Shown in pieces: positions 4,423 to 36,475 of a stretch of 64,000 bases of DNA. A program made the translations under genes and the position numbers. The DNA is taken from positions 1 to 64,000 of the forward strand of contig JAJZPR010000007.1 in assembly GCA_021847835.1 (NCBI GenBank), read 5' to 3'. The notes beneath the pieces were generated by a model. That model searched no databases. It was not told the DNA's origin and worked only from the letters and a program-made list of their open reading frames with translations. Within the stretch, counting starts at the first letter, position 1. Every line of letters begins with the position of its first letter. The stretch comes from Pseudomonadota bacterium (GTDB lineage Bacteria > Pseudomonadota > Gammaproteobacteria > Burkholderiales > Thiobacillaceae).

Positions 4423-6978
4423 CTAAAGCCAGAGCATCAGGCCGGTTTCAAAGGGGTGCGTGAGATATTCGTGCCAAGGGTAGATGCGGACGCGGTAATC
4501 CAGCTTGCCGCACATTTCCGGCGTGATTTCCAGTTCATACAGCGTGCTGCCGTCCTGCAGGGTCTCCCTGCTTTCCATGCACAGGCAGCCGCGATTCCTG
4601 GCGGCGCTGCCCGGCCGGTGCAAGAGCACCTCCACCCGCACGTCCGTCGGGGCAAGTCCGCCCAGATTGGCCGCAACCCTGAGGGTGAAACCTTCGCCGA
4701 ACACGATGGTTTTCCGGGCGGTATCCAGGCGGCGCAGGGAAACCTTGTCCCAATGCGCGCGCACCCTGGACTTCCAGGCCGCCAGGCTTTTTGCCGGCGC
4801 GTACTGGCCATCCCGGAACTTGCGTCCCTGTTCGCTTGCGGACAGATAAAACTTCTCGACGTATTCTCCGACCATGCGCGCGGAATTGAATCGCGGCAGA
4901 AGGCTGGCGATCGAATGCTTGGCCATTTTCACCCAGCCCTCCGAGTACCCCATGCCGTTGCGCTTGTAATACAGCGGAACGATCTGATCCTGCAGCAGTT
5001 CGTAGAGCGTCAGGCTGTCCTCGGCATTGCGCCGCGCATCGTCAAAGTGCTCAGGGGCCGGCTTGATGGCCCAGCCGTTCTTCCCATCCCAGCCCTCGCC
5101 CCACCAGCCGTCCAGCACGGAAAGATTGAGCGTGCCGTTCATGGCCGCCTTCATGCCCGAAGTGCCGGAGGCCTCTAGCGGGTAGATCGGATTGTTGAGC
5201 CAGACATCGACGCCGGCCACGAGCCTGCGCGCCAAGCCCATGTCATAGCCCTCGACCAGCAGCAGCCTGCCCTCGAGATCAGGCAGATGCGACAACTCGT
5301 GGATACGGCGAATGAGCTCCTGGCCAGGCTGGTCGGCGGGATGCGCCTTGCCGGCAAAAATGAACAGCACGGGCCTGGCCTCGTCGGCAATGATCCGCTT
5401 CAGCCAATCCAGATTCTCGAACAGCAAGGTGGCGCGCTTGTAGGTGGCAAAACGTCGCGCGAATCCGACCGTCAGCACCTTGGGGTCGAGCGGGTTGGCC
5501 AGCTTCAGCAGCCGGTCCAGATGCGCCTGCGAGCCATGGTTGCGCGCATGCTGAATGGCGTAGCGCTGCTTCAGGGTGAAGAACAACTGTGCCTTGAGCG
5601 TCTGCCGCACGCTCCAGAACACGTGGTCGGGAATCCTGTCGATGCGCTCTTCCCAGAACGCGGTGTCGTTCAGCTTGTGACGCCACTCGTAACCCAGGCG
5701 ATTGTCGAACAGCTCGATCCACTCCTGCGCCAGGAAGGTGTTCACGTGCACCCCGTTGGTGACGTAATCCATCGGGTTTTCGTCAGGTTCGATTTGCGGC
5801 CAGTGCTCGCCGCAGATGTCGGAGGACACGCCGCCGTGGATGCGTGAAACGCCGTTGTGGTAACGCGAGCCATGCAGCGCCAGCGCGGTCATGTTGAAAT
5901 CCGGGCTGCTTCGGGTATGTCCCAGCTCGTGCAGGCTGCTCAGCGGAATATCCAGCTGCCGGCAGTAATCCTGGAAATAATGCTCGACCATGTCGCTGGA
6001 AAAATGATCGTGGCCGGCCGGCACCGGCGTGTGCGTGGTGAACACCGTGTCCACCGCCACGGCTTCCAGCGCGCTGTTGAAATCCAGCTGCCTGTCCTGC
6101 ATCAGCTGGCGGATGCGCTCCAACACCAGAAACGCCGCATGGCCCTCGTTGATGTGCCAGACCGTGGGCTTGACGCCCATGGCCGCCAGCGCGCGCGCGC
6201 CGCCGACGCCGAGAATGATTTCCTGGCGGATGCGCATTTCGCGATCGCCGCCATACAGCTGGTGCGTGATGTAGCGGTCCTCGGCGTTGTTTTCTTCCAG
6301 TTCGGTGTCGAGCAGCGTCAGCCAGACATGGCCCGCCCGCACCACCCAGACCTTGACCGCGACATTGCGGCCGGGAAACTCCACCTGAACTTTCAATTCC
6401 TGGCCGCCGTCGGTATAGGCGGGCATTACCGGCAGGTCATCGAAATCGGAATCGTGATAATGGGCAACCTGGCGGCCGTCGCCATCGATGGTCTGGGAAA
6501 AATAGCCCTGCCGGTACAGCAGGCCCACACCCACGAAAGGCAGGCGCATGTCGGATGCGGCCTTGCAATGATCGCCGGCGAGGATTCCCAGGCCGCCCGA
6601 ATAGATCGGGAAGCTTTCATGGAAGCCGAATTCCGCGCAGAAATAGGCCACCATGTCGCTGTGCTTGAGCTGGGCCGGCTGATCGCGCTTGAGCGGTTCG
6701 TTGTGGTAAGTGTCGTATGCCGACAGCACGCGGTTGTAATTGGCCAGGAACACGTGGTCTTCGGCGGCCTCCACCAGCCGCTGCTCGTCCACGCGCTTGA
6801 GAAAGGCCTTGGGATTGTGGCCGGTCGCCTCCCACAGGCCGGAATGCAGCCTGGCGAACAGCGTGCGCGTCGGCTTGTCCCAGGTGTACCAGAGGTTGTT
6901 CGCCAGCTCCTCCAGACGGATCAGCCTGCGCGGGATCTTGGGATTGACCTCGATCGTATAGGAAGTGCCCTTGGCCAT
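4423..6978 (-). CDS. glgP: alpha-glucan (glycogen/maltodextrin) phosphorylase
   Basis: An 851-residue GT35 enzyme of the alpha-glucan phosphorylase subfamily, releasing glucose-1-phosphate from storage or malto-oligosaccharide glucan. The PLP-binding region GTSGMKAAMNGT lies near residue 607, preceded by NNPIYPLEAS, and active-site stretches such as HINEGHAAF and FTTHTPVPAGHD are intact. A beta-rich C-terminal domain follows. No other glycogen genes are near. It is 47 bases downstream of orn and could be cotranscribed. Confidence 0.93.
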   Translation of the reverse strand: MAKGTSYTIEVNPKIPRRLIRLEELANNLWYTWDKPTRTLFARLHSGLWEATGHNPKAFLKRVDEQRLVEAAEDHVFLANYNRVLSAYDTYHNEPLKRDQPAQLKHSDMVAYFCAEFGFHESFPIYSGGLGILAGDHCKAASDMRLPFVGVGLLYRQGYFSQTIDGDGRQVAHYHDSDFDDLPVMPAYTDGGQELKVQVEFPGRNVAVKVWVVRAGHVWLTLLDTELEENNAEDRYITHQLYGGDREMRIRQEIILGVGGARALAAMGVKPTVWHINEGHAAFLVLERIRQLMQDRQLDFNSALEAVAVDTVFTTHTPVPAGHDHFSSDMVEHYFQDYCRQLDIPLSSLHELGHTRSSPDFNMTALALHGSRYHNGVSRIHGGVSSDICGEHWPQIEPDENPMDYVTNGVHVNTFLAQEWIELFDNRLGYEWRHKLNDTAFWEERIDRIPDHVFWSVRQTLKAQLFFTLKQRYAIQHARNHGSQAHLDRLLKLANPLDPKVLTVGFARRFATYKRATLLFENLDWLKRIIADEARPVLFIFAGKAHPADQPGQELIRRIHELSHLPDLEGRLLLVEGYDMGLARRLVAGVDVWLNNPIYPLEASGTSGMKAAMNGTLNLSVLDGWWGEGWDGKNGWAIKPAPEHFDDARRNAEDSLTLYELLQDQIVPLYYKRNGMGYSEGWVKMAKHSIASLLPRFNSARMVGEYVEKFYLSASEQGRKFRDGQYAPAKSLAAWKSRVRAHWDKVSLRRLDTARKTIVFGEGFTLRVAANLGGLAPTDVRVEVLLHRPGSAARNRGCLCMESRETLQDGSTLYELEITPEMCGKLDYRVRIYPWHEYLTHPFETGLMLWL

Positions 6979-23675: not shown

Positions 23676-24126
23676 GTGGTTGTGGATTTCGGCTCTCGTC
23701 TTTGCCGTCGACCAGGTCACCAAATGGGCGATCTTCCTGGGCATGGAATACCACGGCATGATCCCGGTGCTGCCCTTTTTCAGCATCGTGCATGTGCACA
23801 ACACCGGCGCGGCCTTCAGCTTCCTGGCCGACGCCGGCGGCTGGCAGCGCTGGTTCTTCCTTGGCATCGGCATCGGCGCCAGCGCCTTCATCCTGCACTT
23901 GCTGCGCAGGCACCAGGACGAGGCGCTCATGTCCGTGGGGCTGACCCTGATCCTGGGCGGCGCGCTCGGCAACGTGTTCGACCGCGTGTGGCACGGCTTC
24001 GTGGTGGACTTTCTGTACTTCCACTATCAAACTTATGCCTTCCCCGCCTTCAACGTGGCCGATTCTGCCATCACCGTGGGCGCGGGCCTCTTGATCTGGG
24101 ACAGCCTGAGGCGCAAACCCGCATGA
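23668..24126 (+). CDS. lspA: lipoprotein signal peptidase (signal peptidase II)
   Basis: A 152-residue, four-span membrane aspartyl protease that trims prolipoproteins. Catalytic aspartates are in [15 protein letters not shown] and FNVADSAI. The start ATG at 23668 overlaps the ileS end, and the stop overlaps the next gene as ATGA. Confidence 0.96.
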
Positions 24127-24560
24127 GCGAAACCCCCGTCGCCTACGGCGACACCATCCGGCTGCGTTACGCCATCCGCTTCCGCAACGGCGACGAGATC
24201 GTGTCCAACTTCGAGGACGCCGAGCCCGACACCCTCACCCTCGGCGACGGCACGCTGGCGCAGACCCTGGAGCAATGGCTCATCGGCCTGAAACCCGGCG
24301 AACGGCATGTGTTTTTGCTGGAACCCTGGCAGGCCTTCGGCACCAGCAGCGAAGAACTGGTGCAGACCCTCAGGACGGAAGACATCCCCCCCGGCATGCA
24401 ACTCGAACCCGGCACGCTCGTCGAGTTCGAACTGCCCAACGGCCAGACCCTGGCCGGCAGCATCCTCGATGTCAGCCCCGAGGGCGTCAGAGTGGATTTC
24501 AACCATCCCCTGGCGGACTGCCCCATCGAGTTTGAGGTCGAGGTTGCAGGGATTTTGTAA
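24123..24560 (+). CDS. fkpB: FKBP-type peptidyl-prolyl isomerase, SlpA-like
   Basis: A 145-residue cytosolic FKBP with an inserted-flap domain: IRLRYAIRFRNGDEIVSNF, then LIGLKPGERHVFLL and the C-terminal FNHPLADCPIEFEVEV typical of SlyD/SlpA. No metal-binding His/Cys tail, hence SlpA rather than SlyD. Coupled to lspA by ATGA; the lspA-fkpB-ispH order is classical, but here a repeat cluster and a nuclease gene separate it from ispH. Confidence 0.93.
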   Translation: MSETPVAYGDTIRLRYAIRFRNGDEIVSNFEDAEPDTLTLGDGTLAQTLEQWLIGLKPGERHVFLLEPWQAFGTSSEELVQTLRTEDIPPGMQLEPGTLVEFELPNGQTLAGSILDVSPEGVRVDFNHPLADCPIEFEVEVAGIL

Positions 24561-24565
24561 ACCCT

Positions 24566-24672
24566 TTTACCCCCTCCCAACCTCCCCCGGCGAGCGGGGG
24601 AGGAGCAAAACCTTGCACCCTGCAGAGATACTCCCTCCCCTCTCGCAGGGGAGGGTTGGGGTGGGGTAAGCG
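24566..24672. repeat. inverted pair of palindromic repeats before the DUF559 gene
   Basis: A forward unit (CCCCCTCCCAACCTCCCCC, loop GGCGAGC, GGGGGAGG arm, about 24566-24607) is followed by a reverse unit (CCCTCCCCTCTCGCAGGGG then AGGGTTGGGGTGGGGTAAG, about 24629-24670). Reverse-complementing the second gives the first with small changes, so this is one repeat family in head-to-head pairing. The second unit ends 3 bases before the DUF559 ATG. Confidence 0.9.
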
Positions 24673-24673
24673 A

Positions 24674-25051
24674 ATGGCAACAAAACGCACCAACACCGCA
24701 CGCAAGCTCCGCCGCGAAATGACAGATGCCGAACGCCTGCTGTGGCAACATCTCAGACGGCAGCAGACGGGAATCAAATTCCGGCGCCAGTTTCCGCTTG
24801 GGCCTTATATCCTGGATTTTGTATCGCTTGATGCACGACTCAATCTGGAGATCGACGGCGGTCAACATGCAGAGCGTGTTGAGGACAGGATTCGAGACGA
24901 TTTCGTCCGCTCGCAAGGATTCAGGGTGCTCAGATTCTGGAACAACGAGGTGTTGGGTAATATCGAAGGCGTGATGGAGGTCATACTTCAACACTTACCC
25001 CCTCCCAACCTCCCCCGGCAAGCGGGGGAGGGGCAAACGAATTCAGCTTAA
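24674..25051 (+). CDS. DUF559 (Vsr-like) endonuclease-fold protein
   Basis: A 125-residue protein of the DUF559 family, related to Vsr/PD-(D/E)xK nucleases: [46 protein letters not shown] and [11 protein letters not shown]. The candidate acidic and His active-site residues are present. The last 17 residues (from [10 protein letters not shown]) are translated from a palindromic repeat, which also supplies the stop. The upstream repeat arm supplies a G-rich leader. Chosen start ATG 24674; a TTG at 24656 lies inside the repeat. Not part of the normal fkpB-ispH order, so probably inserted. Confidence 0.85.
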
Positions 25052-25298
25052 CCCCTCAATGCCCCTCCCAACCTCCCCCGGCAAGCGGGGGAGGAGCAAA
25101 CGAATTCAGCTCAAAACCTCAATGCCCCTCCCAACCTCCCCCGGCAAGCGGGGGAGGAGCAAACGAATTCAGCTCAAAACCTCAATGCCCCTCCCAACCG
25201 CCCAGTGGCTGGCGTGCACGCCAGCCCCGTTCCGGCGGGGCAAAGCCAAGCAGTTGGCTTTGCCTTACCCGCCTCCACCCCCCGGCAAGCGGGGGAGG
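24998..25298 (+). repeat. tandem array of forward palindromic repeats (63-bp period)
   Basis: Units begin at 24998, 25061, 25124 and 25187. Each has CCCCTCCCAACCTCCCCC, loop GGCAAGC, the complementary GGGGGAGG arm and a spacer ending CAAACGAATTCAGC. The second and third are nearly identical. The fourth is broken at about 25200 by a 65-base insertion of hairpins and resumes at 25267. There is no gene here apart from the DUF559 tail. Confidence 0.92.
25200..25264. repeat. three nested hairpins inserted in a repeat unit
   Basis: First, GGCTGGCGTG-CACGCCAGCC (25207-25226), a perfect 20-base palindrome. Second, CCCCG-TTCCGG-CGGGG (25225-25240). Third, GCAAAGCCAA-GCAG-TTGGCTTTGC (25240-25263), a perfect 10-bp stem. 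They abut each other and interrupt the fourth unit of the 63-bp array. Confidence 0.88.
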
Positions 25299-25327
25299 AA
25301 AAAACCGACAGCAATCCAGAGAACATT

Positions 25328-25481
25328 CCCTCCCCTCTTGCAGGGGAGGGTTAGGGTGGGCTCAAGGCAACCCAGCAAAAGATCCCCTCCCCTCTTGCAG
25401 GGGAGGGTTAGGGTGGGCTCAAGGCAACCCAGCAAAAGATCCCCTCCCCTCTTGCAGGGGAGGGTTAGGGTGGGGTAAAAC
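25328..25481 (+). repeat. tandem array of reverse palindromic repeats (57-bp period)
   Basis: Three units with TCCCCTCTTGCAGGGGAGGG at 25331, 25388 and 25445, joined by identical spacers (TTAGGGTGGGCTCAAGGCAA then CCCAGCAAAAGATC). They are in opposite orientation to the 63-bp array, so 24998-25481 is a large head-to-head cluster. About 35 bases remain before ispH. Confidence 0.93.
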
Positions 25482-25515
25482 ACCCATTCAAACAGGCAAC
25501 GCTCACCGTATCCTC

Positions 25516-26448
25516 ATGCATCATTCTCACCAGAAAATTTTCCTCGCCACGCCGCGCGGCTTCTGCGCCGGCGTGGACCGCGCCATCGCCATCGTCGAGC
25601 GGGCGCTGGAAAAGTTCGGCGCGCCCATCTACGTGCGCCACGAAGTCGTGCACAACGCCTATGTCGTCAACGATCTCAAGCGGAAAGGCGCGGTCTTCGT
25701 CGAGGAGCTGGACGAGGTGCCCGCCGGGGCGACGGTCATATTCAGCGCGCACGGCGTGTCCCAGGCCGTCAGGCATGAAGCGGAACAACGCGGCCTCAAC
25801 GTCTTTGACGCCACCTGCCCCCTGGTCACCAAGGTGCATGTGGAAGTTTCAAAGATGCGTGAGAAGGGCCTGGAAATCGTCATGATCGGCCACAAGGGCC
25901 ACCCCGAGGTCGAGGGCACCATGGGCCAGAGCGCGGGCGGCATGCACCTGGTGGAAACGCCTGAGGACGTCGCCGCACTGAATGTGGCCGACCCCGGCAA
26001 GCTCGCCTATGTCACCCAGACCACGCTCTCGGTGGACGACGCCGCGCGCGTGGTGGAAGCGCTGCGCGCGAGATTCCCCAACATCGTCGGCCCCAAGAAG
26101 GACGACATCTGCTACGCCACGCAAAACCGCCAGGATGCGGTGAAGAAGCTCGCCGCCGAATGCGACGCGGTCATCGTCGTCGGCTCGCCCAACAGCTCCA
26201 ACTCCAATCGTTTGAGGGAAGTCGCCGAAAACCTCGGCGTGCCCGCCTGGCTAGTGGACGACGAAACCGGCATCGATCCCGCCTGGCTTGCAGGCAAGCC
26301 CCGCATCGGCGTCACCGCCGGCGCCTCCGCCCCGGAAATCCTGGTCGAACGCGTCATCGCACGCCTGAAACAGCTCGGGGCCGCCGAAGCGGCCCCGCTG
26401 GAAGGCTTGCAGGAGAATGTCAGTTTTCCGATGCCGAAAGGGCTGTAA
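25516..26448 (+). CDS. ispH: 4-hydroxy-3-methylbut-2-enyl diphosphate reductase
   Basis: A 310-residue iron-sulfur enzyme, the last step of the MEP isoprenoid pathway. The three cluster cysteines are in [20 protein letters not shown] and [11 protein letters not shown], and the EVVHNAYVV and [10 protein letters not shown] active-site motifs are intact. The last 66 coding bases before the final codons (26376-26441) recur perfectly at 27089-27154, and other C-terminal pieces recur further downstream. Confidence 0.97.
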
Positions 26449-26476: not shown

Positions 26477-26770
26477 TTACTCCCGCGAAAAATCCACCTG
26501 CCAGTGGCGCGAGGTATGAATCACCGCAAGTACCCTGATGGCATCTTTTTGCACGCGGTAAACCACCAGATAGGGGTAACGGCCCAGCACAAGTTCGCGC
26601 GTGCCCGCTACCCCGCCCACCCGCCCCAGCAGCGGGTTATCCATCAGCGCCTGTACCGCCTCCCGGATGGCGCCGATTACTTTTGCCGCCGCCGCTTTGT
26701 TATCCTGAGCGATGGACGAGTGAATCTGGCGCAAATCCGAACCCGACTCATTCGACCACTCAAGCCGCAC
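26477..26770 (-). CDS. RelE/ParE-family toxin (module 1)
   Basis: A 97-residue toxin-like protein: LEWSNESGSDLRQIHSSIAQ, NPLLGRVGGVAGTRELVLG, YPYLVVYRV, the usual ParE/RelE order. Start is GTG at 26770, overlapping the antitoxin stop by 11 bases, exactly as in module 2. It faces ispH convergently with 28 bases between the stops. Whether it acts on gyrase (ParE) or mRNA (RelE) cannot be told. Confidence 0.88.
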   Translation of the reverse strand: MRLEWSNESGSDLRQIHSSIAQDNKAAAAKVIGAIREAVQALMDNPLLGRVGGVAGTRELVLGRYPYLVVYRVQKDAIRVLAVIHTSRHWQVDFSRE

Positions 26771-26987
26771 GCGTCAGTTCCGCAAACAGCGCCTCGACTT
26801 CTTCATTGCTCATTACGCCGGAAGCCTCGGCGGAATTGATTTTTGCCTCCAGCCAGCGGCGCTTGGCCAGATAAGACTCCAGCGCCTCGGCAGCGATGAA
26901 CGATTTGGAGCGCTGCGCGCCGGCAGCGATTCTCTCCAACTCGGCCCGAGTCTCGTCACTGACACGGATAGTAATAGTTGCACTCAT
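26760..26987 (-). CDS. ribbon-helix-helix antitoxin (module 1)
   Basis: A 75-residue protein with an N-terminal RHH domain: MSATITIRVSDETRAELERI then SKSFIAAEALESYLAKR. The acidic C-terminal half (SNEEVEALFAELT) should bind the toxin. The start at 26987 is preferred because the RHH strand begins at residue 3. Transcribed before its toxin, normal for autoregulated pairs. Confidence 0.9.
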   Translation of the reverse strand: MSATITIRVSDETRAELERIAAGAQRSKSFIAAEALESYLAKRRWLEAKINSAEASGVMSNEEVEALFAELTRAA

Positions 26988-27010
26988 GTTCCGTCCCGCC
27001 CAACGTACAC

Positions 27011-27030
27011 AACGTATACATTGTATAGTG
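27011..27030 (-). promoter_or_regulatory. operator/promoter of toxin-antitoxin module 1
   Basis: TATACA-T-TGTATA (27015-27027) is a perfect inverted repeat 28 bases upstream of the antitoxin ATG; on the minus strand TATACAAT within it can serve as a -10. This is a typical site for RHH autorepression. Confidence 0.6.
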
Positions 27031-27064
27031 GAATCCAGCGCCAAACACAAGGGGAAATCGTCGA

Positions 27065-27161
27065 GACTCGCAACCTGCCTGAAACAAACGGGGCCGCCGA
27101 AGCGGCCCCGCTGGAAGGCTTGCAGGAGAATGTCAGTTTTCCGATGCCGAAAGGCTTGTAG
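27065..27161 (+). pseudogene. ispH 3'-end fragment A
   Basis: 27089-27154 is identical over 66 bases to 26376-26441 of ispH and then ends TTGTAG in place of CTGTAA. A more diverged match extends upstream to about 27065 (CCTGAAACA). It encodes the ispH C-terminus [11 protein letters not shown] without the rest of the gene. Together with the real ispH end it brackets toxin-antitoxin module 1. Confidence 0.88.
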
Positions 27162-35011: not shown

Positions 35012-35415
35012 GTCCCCCTCCCAACCTCCCCCACACAGTGGGGGAGGGGCGATGGACCCCCTCCCCACTTCGTGGGGAGGGCCGGGGTGGGCTCAGGGCA
35101 ACCCAGCAAAAGACCCCCTCCCCACTCCGTGGGGAGGGCTGGGGTGGGGAAACCTCTCCCTCCCAACCTCCCCCACCATGTGGGGGAGGGGCAAACGAAT
35201 TCAGCCCAAACCCTCAATGCCCCTCCCAACCTCCCCCACCGTGTGGGGGAGGGGCGATGGACCTCCTCCCCTCTCGCAGGGGAGGGCCGGGGTGGGCTCA
35301 GGACAGTTCGGCCTTAGACCCCTCCCCTCTCGCAGGGGAGGGTCGGGGTGGGCTCAGGGCAGTTCGGCCTTAGACCCCCTCCCCTCTTGCAGGGGAGGGT
35401 TGGGGTGGGGTAAGC
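35012..35415. repeat. second cluster of palindromic repeats
   Basis: The 488-base gap between thiO and the ELM1-like gene is filled by at least eight units in both orientations. Stems are CTCCCCC/GGGGGAG or CTCCCC/GGGGAG; loops vary (ACACAGT, ACCATGT, ACCGTGT, ACTTCGT, ACTCCGT, TCGCA, TTGCA). Spacers include CAAACGAATTCAG, AACCCAGCAAAAGACC and CAGTTCGGCCTTAGACC. The final unit ends GGGGTAAGCC directly at the next ATG. No gene is seen inside. Confidence 0.92.
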
Positions 35416-36373: not shown

Positions 36374-36475
36374 ACCCTTCTCCCCACCCACGTGGGGGGC
36401 CGGGGCGGGCTCAAGGCAGCCCAGCAAAAGACCCTCCTCTCCACTCCGTGGGGAGGGTCGGGGCGGGGAGGCGCC
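36313..36475. repeat. third cluster of palindromic repeats (diverged)
   Basis: Three decayed reverse-type units: one inside the ELM1-like 3' end (CCACCGCGCGGGGAGAGCGG), one at about 36379-36410 (CCCCACCCACGTGGGG), one at about 36433-36470 (CTCCACTCCGTGGGGAGG). The spacers CTCAAGGCAGTTCGGCCTTA and GCCCAGCAAAAGACC match those of the other clusters. The rest, up to mntA, contains nothing recognised except an AT-rich patch near 36520-36550 that may hold the mntA promoter. Confidence 0.85.

Follow-up and report, generated by a model that had tools for sequence, protein, structure and literature searches.

The REP sequences and their doublets, the REPINs, are small palindromes that occur in several variants per genome, each variant lying inverted beside its own nuclease gene, which encodes a Y1/HUH transposase (RAYT), and also as solitary copies and doublets. 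A REP palindrome carries a GTAG or a CGTC tag at one of its ends (PMC3733652), and Bertels and Rainey tied the REPINs to the RAYTs by matching their variants (PMC3116915). A different repeat, formerly known as BoxC or PIT, was described by Holder et al. in 2015 as a triplex motif (TM) with 23 copies in Escherichia coli MG1655, always intergenic, and for the E. coli motif the formation of the triplex was observed in vitro (PMC4666352). According to the same article mobility functions had never been found around the TM, and its mechanism and origin were left unanswered; the terms DUF, endonuclease and ycjD do not occur in its main text (PMC4666352). The DUF559 proteins belong to a family of unknown function that has been interpreted in more than one way. 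One study located YcjD of E. coli beside Vsr within the PD-(D/E)XK superfamily (PMC1189080), and the Caulobacter protein VsrA was read as a VSP repair enzyme, which causes an SOS response in cells devoid of cytosine methyltransferase (PMC12907096). In the open PMC literature we found no paper that links DUF559 to the BoxC/PIT/TM repeats.

Here we analyze a DUF559 gene located in a stretch of 64,000 nucleotides, referred to as the window, from a bacterium of the Thiobacillaceae (contig JAJZPR010000007.1, assembly GCA_021847835.1). The gene is flanked by fkpB (24123-24560) and ispH (25516-26448), and an earlier sequence-only reading described it as a Vsr-like DUF559 gene placed between an inverted repeat pair and two tandem arrays of the same repeat family. 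The PF04480 profile and a structure scan bear out this description, and the limits given for the cluster, 24566-25481, are correct to within a few bases (TTTTACCCC ... GGGGTAAAA). The features of the locus, together with a second cluster of the window, are the following:

24561..25515, no strand: whole insert between fkpB and ispH, missing in three relatives of the same genus (locus comparison).
24570..24603, minus strand: TM unit, the outer one of the upstream head-to-head pair (structure scan, DNA fold).
24633..24666, plus strand: TM unit directly 5' of the gene, with its third strand facing the gene; left terminal inverted repeat (structure scan, DNA fold).
24674..25051, plus strand: DUF559 gene, 125 amino acids, predicted Vsr-like/EDxHD nuclease with its conserved residues intact (PF04480, alignments, model).
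24998..25031, minus strand: TM unit at the 3' end of the gene, overlapping the last codons; right terminal inverted repeat (structure scan, DNA fold).
24999..25203, minus strand: 63-bp tandem array, 3.3 copies, with three TM units at 24998, 25061 and 25124 (repeat and structure scans).
25279..25305, minus strand: partial copy of the palindrome, missed by the strict scan (direct repeat family D3).
25328..25474, plus strand: 57-bp tandem array, 2.6 copies, with three TM units at 25328, 25385 and 25442 (repeat and structure scans).
35012..35410, no strand: second TM cluster, eight higher-scoring units, with no adjoining DUF559 gene (structure scan, list of open reading frames).

In each unit a 5-nt loop joins a pyrimidine arm to a purine arm, and a short second loop connects the latter to its mirror image, a third strand made of purines. 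The structure scan found 20 matches in the whole window, eight of them strict units around the DUF559 gene, and a single match in the reversed window; the units of the window fold as stable hairpins, and the genome to which it belongs contains 80 matches to the pattern versus 2 to the reversed pattern, so that the motif is multicopy and over-represented. The units of the 63-bp and 57-bp arrays are one kind of repeat in opposite orientations and with slightly different sequences, and the immediate flanks of the gene, a plus-strand TM upstream and a minus-strand TM downstream, constitute terminal inverted repeats. A search for known RNA families at their gathering score gave no match in 24400-25700.

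With its pyrimidine-purine stem, short loop and mirrored purine third strand, the repeat has the layout of BoxC/PIT/TM, and it also shares with the published motif a second loop of the TTA/CCG type and a high copy number (PMC4666352). The same scan recovers the published copy of K-12: TM no. 9 of MG1655 (1351204-1351239; PMC4666352) lies 167 bp downstream of the DUF559 gene ycjD (1351407-1351760), for which the scan detects this single TM, and by eye a degraded copy can be made out where the gene ends. We conclude that the repeat around DUF559 is the intrastrand triplex motif and not a REP sequence; the gene in the window encodes a Vsr-like DUF559 protein instead of a Y1/HUH transposase, and the adjoining units have a third purine strand and lack the GTAG/CGTC tag. 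The feature shared with REP/RAYT is that the nuclease gene lies between inverted copies of its own variant of the repeat. In contrast to BoxC/PIT/TM as published, for which no mobility gene was reported (PMC4666352), the repeats described here have a partner nuclease with matched variants. The sequence-only reading had recognized the pairing of this repeat family with a nuclease, and had missed both its identity with BoxC/PIT/TM and the unit, recurrent in several phyla, that is described below.

Other features of the region were noted. A defence system at this locus was discarded, the only indication being a weak DpdF match (E 3e-4). On the 3' side of ispH (26477-27158) two short minus-strand open reading frames resemble, by eye, a toxin-antitoxin pair, and beyond them the final 25 codons of ispH recur at 27084-27158 with 92% identity; similar fragments of the ispH 3' end occur downstream of ispH in the congeneric genomes G188 and G190. 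Three weaker TM matches follow the second cluster, out to position 36465, and this cluster lies partly inside open frames.

The product of the gene scores 126.1 bits against PF04480 (curated Pfam cut-off, 20.6), and DUF559 is its sole Pfam match apart from a sub-threshold REase model. The structural model of the protein (pLDDT 83.7) matches the DUF559 structure 3hrl with a Z score of 15.0, I-Bth0305I with 11.6 and Vsr with 9.9, and a profile search also retrieves I-Bth0305I, weakly (E 4e-4). A likeness to TnsA appears in the structure listing with a Z score of 7.1, too low to build on. Five residues, E17, D45, D58, H62 and D68 in domain numbering, are kept in 134-135 of 135 sequences, 80 of which were recruited with a motif that includes D58 and H62; E17, D45, H62 and D68, which we take to be the EDxHD motif, are present in the copy of the window. 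The gene is therefore predicted to encode a Vsr-like/EDxHD nuclease with intact catalytic residues. I-Bth0305I is similar in the fold of its catalytic domain, but DUF559 is here a lone domain of 105 residues, with neither added DNA-binding modules nor an intron and with inverted TMs at its bounds.

The distribution of TMs around DUF559 genes was evaluated in two sets of loci. For the first, 185 genomes evenly drawn from the class of the window were searched with the PF04480 profile, which gave 92 matches in 60 genomes; 60 regions were taken (58 of the 60 with E <= 1.7e-17, together with two weaker matches), and flanks were counted in 56 loci, leaving out two with short flanks (L102, L104) and the two weak ones (L105, L106). 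Within 200 bp, TMs were present on both sides of the gene in 31 of these 56 loci, on one side in 10 and on neither in 15, whereas among 480 control open reading frames of the same regions the corresponding counts were 3, 32 and 445. The flanks reached an inverted-repeat score of 30 or more in 41/56 DUF559 loci versus 9/480 controls. In the 60 regions (967 kb), 120 of the 200 TMs lie at 400 bp or less from the DUF559 domain, and the reversed sequences gave 9 matches. By eye, a looser version of the same layout is visible in several loci devoid of strict TMs, either with a hairpin that takes the place of the second loop (L062, L068, L072, L100) or with a CCCCCTTT..AAAGGGGG stem (L087, L093).

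The second set comprises the best 80 of at least 576 loci found in GTDB genomes with a profile built from the first set and one motif, and therefore is not a random sample. By their record titles these best 80 belong to Proteobacteria, Chloroflexi, Nitrospirae, Nitrospinota, Spirochaetes, Omnitrophota, Dadabacteria, Stahlbacteria, Chlamydiae, Gastranaerophilales and others. Two short-flanked loci were dropped, and one with a run of N (L151) was kept out of the inverted-repeat count. Among the remaining 78 of these best 80 loci, TMs within 200 bp were found on both sides in 53, on one side in 18 and on neither in 7, and none of 367 control open reading frames was bracketed; the inverted-repeat score reached 30 in 62/77 loci versus 3/367 controls, and of 222 TMs, 177 are at most 400 bp from the gene, with 6 matches in the reversed sequence. 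The orientation is also constant: the nearest upstream TM is on the plus strand in 34/36 cases in the first set and 53/61 among the best 80, and the nearest downstream TM is on the minus strand in 34/36 and 54/63, respectively. A stereotyped unit TM(+)-gene-TM(-) is thus present in several phyla, and chance as the cause of the bracketing was rejected on account of the reversed sequences and the control frames. The enrichment of repeats beside DUF559 genes that the sequence-only reading had put forward as a check is evident in both sets (31/56 and 53/78, versus 3/480 and 0/367 in the controls). Vsr genes, whose products have the same fold, lack these repeats: of 31 matches in the class sample 28 were scored, and no TM lies within 500 bp of any of them. 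Given that the mirror-image bracketing recurs in so many bacterial groups, the DUF559 nuclease is a strong candidate for the enzyme that moves the TMs.

Stable hairpins at both ends of a gene could also be its terminators or stability elements, the remaining regularities being a coincidence. This was already disfavoured, and we regard it as very improbable: genes other than DUF559 are almost never bracketed, earlier work cited by Holder et al. found neither promoter nor terminator activity in PIT elements (PMC4666352), and the match between variants described below would be left unexplained. Moreover, the DUF559 frame reads into the downstream TM in 73 of the 98 loci that have one, as in the window, where the last codons of the gene are written in the TM; the Pro/Gly tail encoded by the repeat, which the sequence-only reading had mentioned for DUF559 homologues, agrees with this count.

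Away from DUF559, the inward arrangement does not prevail among TM doublets (17 inward, 21 outward, 6 tandem); in MG1655, 4 of the 5 pairs in the published table are inward (PMC4666352). Eight TM-DUF559 cassettes lie in frame inside long open frames (L064, L080, L081, L083, L086, L094, L096, L162); DNA methylase or type I specificity domains (N6_Mtase, N6_N4_Mtase, Methylase_S) are present in six of these hosts, and an AIR-synthase-like gene and a class-III aminotransferase account for the remaining two. Since GC-rich TMs are often open in frame, insertions of this kind may be tolerable.

The variants of the TM follow the cassette, the protein and the genome. The two ends of one locus match each other better than ends from other genomes (mean 50 vs 24), and in genomes with several DUF559 genes the own ends surpass the mean of the ends of the paralogues in 21/29 loci (p 6e-4), a paralogue's end being an equal or better match in 8/29. 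Similarity between proteins correlates with similarity between flanks (Mantel r 0.56, 51 loci, p 0.002). Dispersed TMs, at a distance above 800 bp, are similar to the cassette of the genome or locus to which they belong, with a median rank in the top 2% of 102 cassettes (117 TMs, 33 genomes) and 24 of 33 groups above the middle (p 1e-4); base composition and kinship may add to the figures for end matching, the Mantel test and the dispersed TMs. The CCTTC-type TM is found in 11/185 genomes, namely 8 of 41 with a canonical DUF559 versus 3 of 144 without it (p 3e-4). Once the cassette copies are left out, this type occurs in 3/4 genomes whose cassette has it versus 4/37 of the others (p 0.012; small numbers). 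The genome of the window has two PF04480 genes, each with its own TM variant.

The sequence-only reading had proposed to compare repeat number with the presence of DUF559, and the two are linked at the level of the class, of the family and of E. coli strains. A single fixed TM pattern was counted in the 185 genomes of the class, a canonical DUF559 being defined by E <= 1.7e-17, and with no tree correction the median is 13 TMs in the 41 genomes with a canonical DUF559 versus 0 in the 144 without it; at least 10 TMs are present in 25/41 versus 12/144, and the reversed pattern gave in all 28 and 35 matches in these two groups. In the family of the window the medians are 43 (13 genomes with DUF559) and 2 (12 without), with p 2e-4, or 4e-4 minus the window's genome, also without tree correction. 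That genome has an estimated contamination of 7.11%, and the copy-number results stand without it. Its congeners have 19, 20, 21 and 95 TMs when DUF559 is present, and 0, 1, 2 and 16 when it is absent. Exceptions exist in both directions, such as the TM-rich genomes G093 (77), G047 (48) and G045 (36), devoid of a canonical DUF559, and the 8/41 genomes with the gene and fewer than 3 TMs; loss of the gene after the spread, contigs broken at repeats, or variants missed by the pattern could explain them. The Y1_Tnp domain, present in 123/185 genomes, was rejected as the real driver because the TM median is 0 in genomes without a canonical DUF559, with or without Y1_Tnp; a smaller positive effect remains in a joint fit (t 9.9 for DUF559, 3.4 for Y1_Tnp).

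Of 5426 E. coli genomes, 3365 gave a match to ycjD and 2061 did not, which accounts for one E. coli control genome, among 14 controls, with no PF04480 match though K-12 has ycjD. Sixty rows taken at even steps from 5393 records were compared with a query formed by the TM and ycjD, in which the places counted are TM-like matches of the query rather than all TMs. The 37 genomes with ycjD have 12-27 places (median 18 after subtracting that of the gene), versus 1-18 (median 4) in the 23 without it (p 1e-9), a difference that may reflect few events given that the strains are related.

Relatives provide sites at which the cassette is absent. Among three relatives of the same genus, fkpB and ispH share 4 bp in G187 and G188 and are separated by 9 bp in G185, which bears out the claim that the insert splits this neighbourhood, and no TM was detected in the 3.9-kb fkpB-ispH loci of these genomes. 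On another contig of the genome of the window (C55) the second DUF559 is located between sdhB and sdhE, with TMs of another variant at 10 and 11 bp, and is fused in frame through a TM to SdhE (Sdh5 domain; L052, 9484-10200, minus strand). Within the genus, this junction contains DUF559 with strict TMs in G000 and with looser flanks in G188, TMs without DUF559 in G190, a looser hairpin in G192, and neither DUF559 nor TM in G185, G187, G189 and G191; it looks like a recurrent landing site. The same in-frame DUF559-TM-SdhE (Sdh5 domain) fusion was noticed in a Gallionellales genome, an unrelated lineage (L166, 5977-6573, plus strand).

These sites bear on the possibility that DUF559 is a free-standing homing endonuclease, for which the TM clusters would be both target and shelter; it would cut at or between TMs, the gene would be copied in by break repair, and the TMs would spread otherwise. 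The EDxHD homing enzyme I-Bth0305I is, after the DUF559 structure itself, the nearest in fold and sequence, one article counts DUF559 among the EDxHD homing enzymes (PMC9403480), and G190 has TMs without the gene at sdhB-sdhE. We nonetheless consider this explanation unlikely: the target is not split, a whole TM being present on both flanks, the three empty fkpB-ispH sites have no TM, and homing alone does not predict that TM copy number follows the presence of DUF559.

Possible traces of movement are also found within genomes. In G032 three cassettes, 88-98% alike, occupy unrelated places and share longer ends; the full 72-nt end is confined to this genome, where six matches are full-length and seven partial ones consist of the TM only, and 9-bp repeats accompany these cassettes, as judged partly by eye. 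Among 67 loci with strong inverted flanks, both outer ends lie at 6 bp or less from the end of the TM in 39. No clean target-site rule was found in these 67 loci, and a direct repeat at p <= 0.05 was detected in 3/67, about the chance level expected without target-site duplication. IS200/IS605-type elements and MITEs also have hairpins near their ends and non-autonomous copies; they differ from the present case in that the only Pfam match of the gene in the window is DUF559 and direct repeats stay at that chance level. One cassette (L060) has 10-bp direct repeats. In another genome (G116; L231-L235, L238) a MITE-like family of about 165 bp, with ends AACYCAAGTTGCTACCT, carries an inward TM pair in its middle and, by eye, 4-5 bp direct repeats at its ends. 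The direct repeats of the G116 family and of L060 point to help from other transposases in those cases. In Legionella anisa (L223, around 5850-6510) a DUF559 gene belongs to a unit of 663 bp whose inverted ends measure 147 bp and which has a direct repeat of 5 bp, and in L. pneumophila a repeated segment with a transposase and DUF559 was described as a recombination hotspot (PMC12308824).

It could alternatively be argued that DUF559 acts in repair or DNA processing, as a VSP-like or hairpin-cutting nuclease, and that it tolerates or tidies TMs; these would spread by slippage, by RAYT or DDE enzymes acting in trans, or by horizontal transfer, carrying the gene along. The interpretation of VsrA as a VSP repair enzyme (PMC12907096), the TM pairs inside the G116 family and the small effect of Y1_Tnp on TM number are in line with this proposal. 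It does not account for the Vsr genes themselves being unbracketed (0/28), for cassette ends that match both the protein type and the dispersed TMs of the genome, or for a TM median of 0 without canonical DUF559 regardless of Y1_Tnp, and most cassettes have no direct repeats; we judge it slightly less credible than homing.

The explanation that we favor, with a probability of roughly 0.6, is that TM-DUF559-TM is a minimal mobile element with an EDxHD/Vsr-like nuclease that propagates both itself and solitary TMs. The association of the two partners is observed in the oriented bracketing, the matched ends, the co-variation with the protein, the copy-number link, the empty sites of relatives and the three near-identical cassettes of one genome, and from it we infer mobilisation by the enzyme, given that oriented bracketing, matched variants, cognate dispersed copies and a copy-number link are the traces expected of a nuclease and its substrates. 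The nuclease would recognize the folded TM, that is, the hairpin plus the purine third strand, in single-stranded or extruded DNA, and would nick at the edge of the TM; replication or repair would then copy one TM, a pair of them or the entire cassette (about 400-470 bp) to a new, mostly intergenic place. A copy of the cassette may have entered the fkpB-ispH junction, insert-free in relatives, and local tandem copying could afterwards have produced the 63-bp and 57-bp arrays, while solitary TMs, including BoxC/PIT of E. coli, would be non-autonomous copies. By analogy, the system would work like REP/RAYT with an unrelated nuclease and usually without target-site duplication. The RAYT-like role that the sequence-only reading had suggested for DUF559 gains from the bracketing and the copy-number link; DUF559 is no Y1/HUH transposase, and its enzymatic step is a proposal drawn from these traces.

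A broader proposal, to which we give somewhat less than even odds, is that this is a class of mobile DNA extending over several phyla, with a Vsr-like EDxHD nuclease as its sole protein, triplex-forming hairpins as its ends, and BoxC/PIT/TM together with the looser relatives (those with a hairpin second loop or the CCCCCTTT..AAAGGGGG stem) as its non-autonomous offspring; neither an HUH or DDE enzyme nor a site-specific recombinase would take part, the nuclease nicking the folded strand and the host copying it. If the nuclease alone moves the element, it would be categorically new. The preferred reading, if true, would provide a function for a family to which published papers now attribute repair or homing, and would imply more than one origin of REP-like systems, from unrelated nucleases. 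A matched nuclease also makes the question of the TM testable in E. coli, by means of K-12, in which ycjD is the DUF559 gene, and of the 2061/5426 genomes in which ycjD was not found.

Between E. coli strains, TM sites vary at hrpB-mrcB, pstB-pstA and tauD-hemB. As a test of movement these sites were set aside: the difference at pstB-pstA is possibly a deletion, those at hrpB-mrcB and tauD-hemB are replacements, and the changes could have run in either direction. At pstB-pstA (L261; NC_000913.3, 3908200-3908800) strains differ by a segment of exactly 92 bp that contains a TM and has AACCGTGT on either end, which corresponds either to an insertion with an 8-bp duplication or to a deletion between the AACCGTGT repeats. 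Between fabI and sapF, K-12 carries ycjD and a TM, and an E. coli genome without ycjD (L336 and L257; NZ_CP041300.1) has an efflux operon and an MFS gene at the same place.
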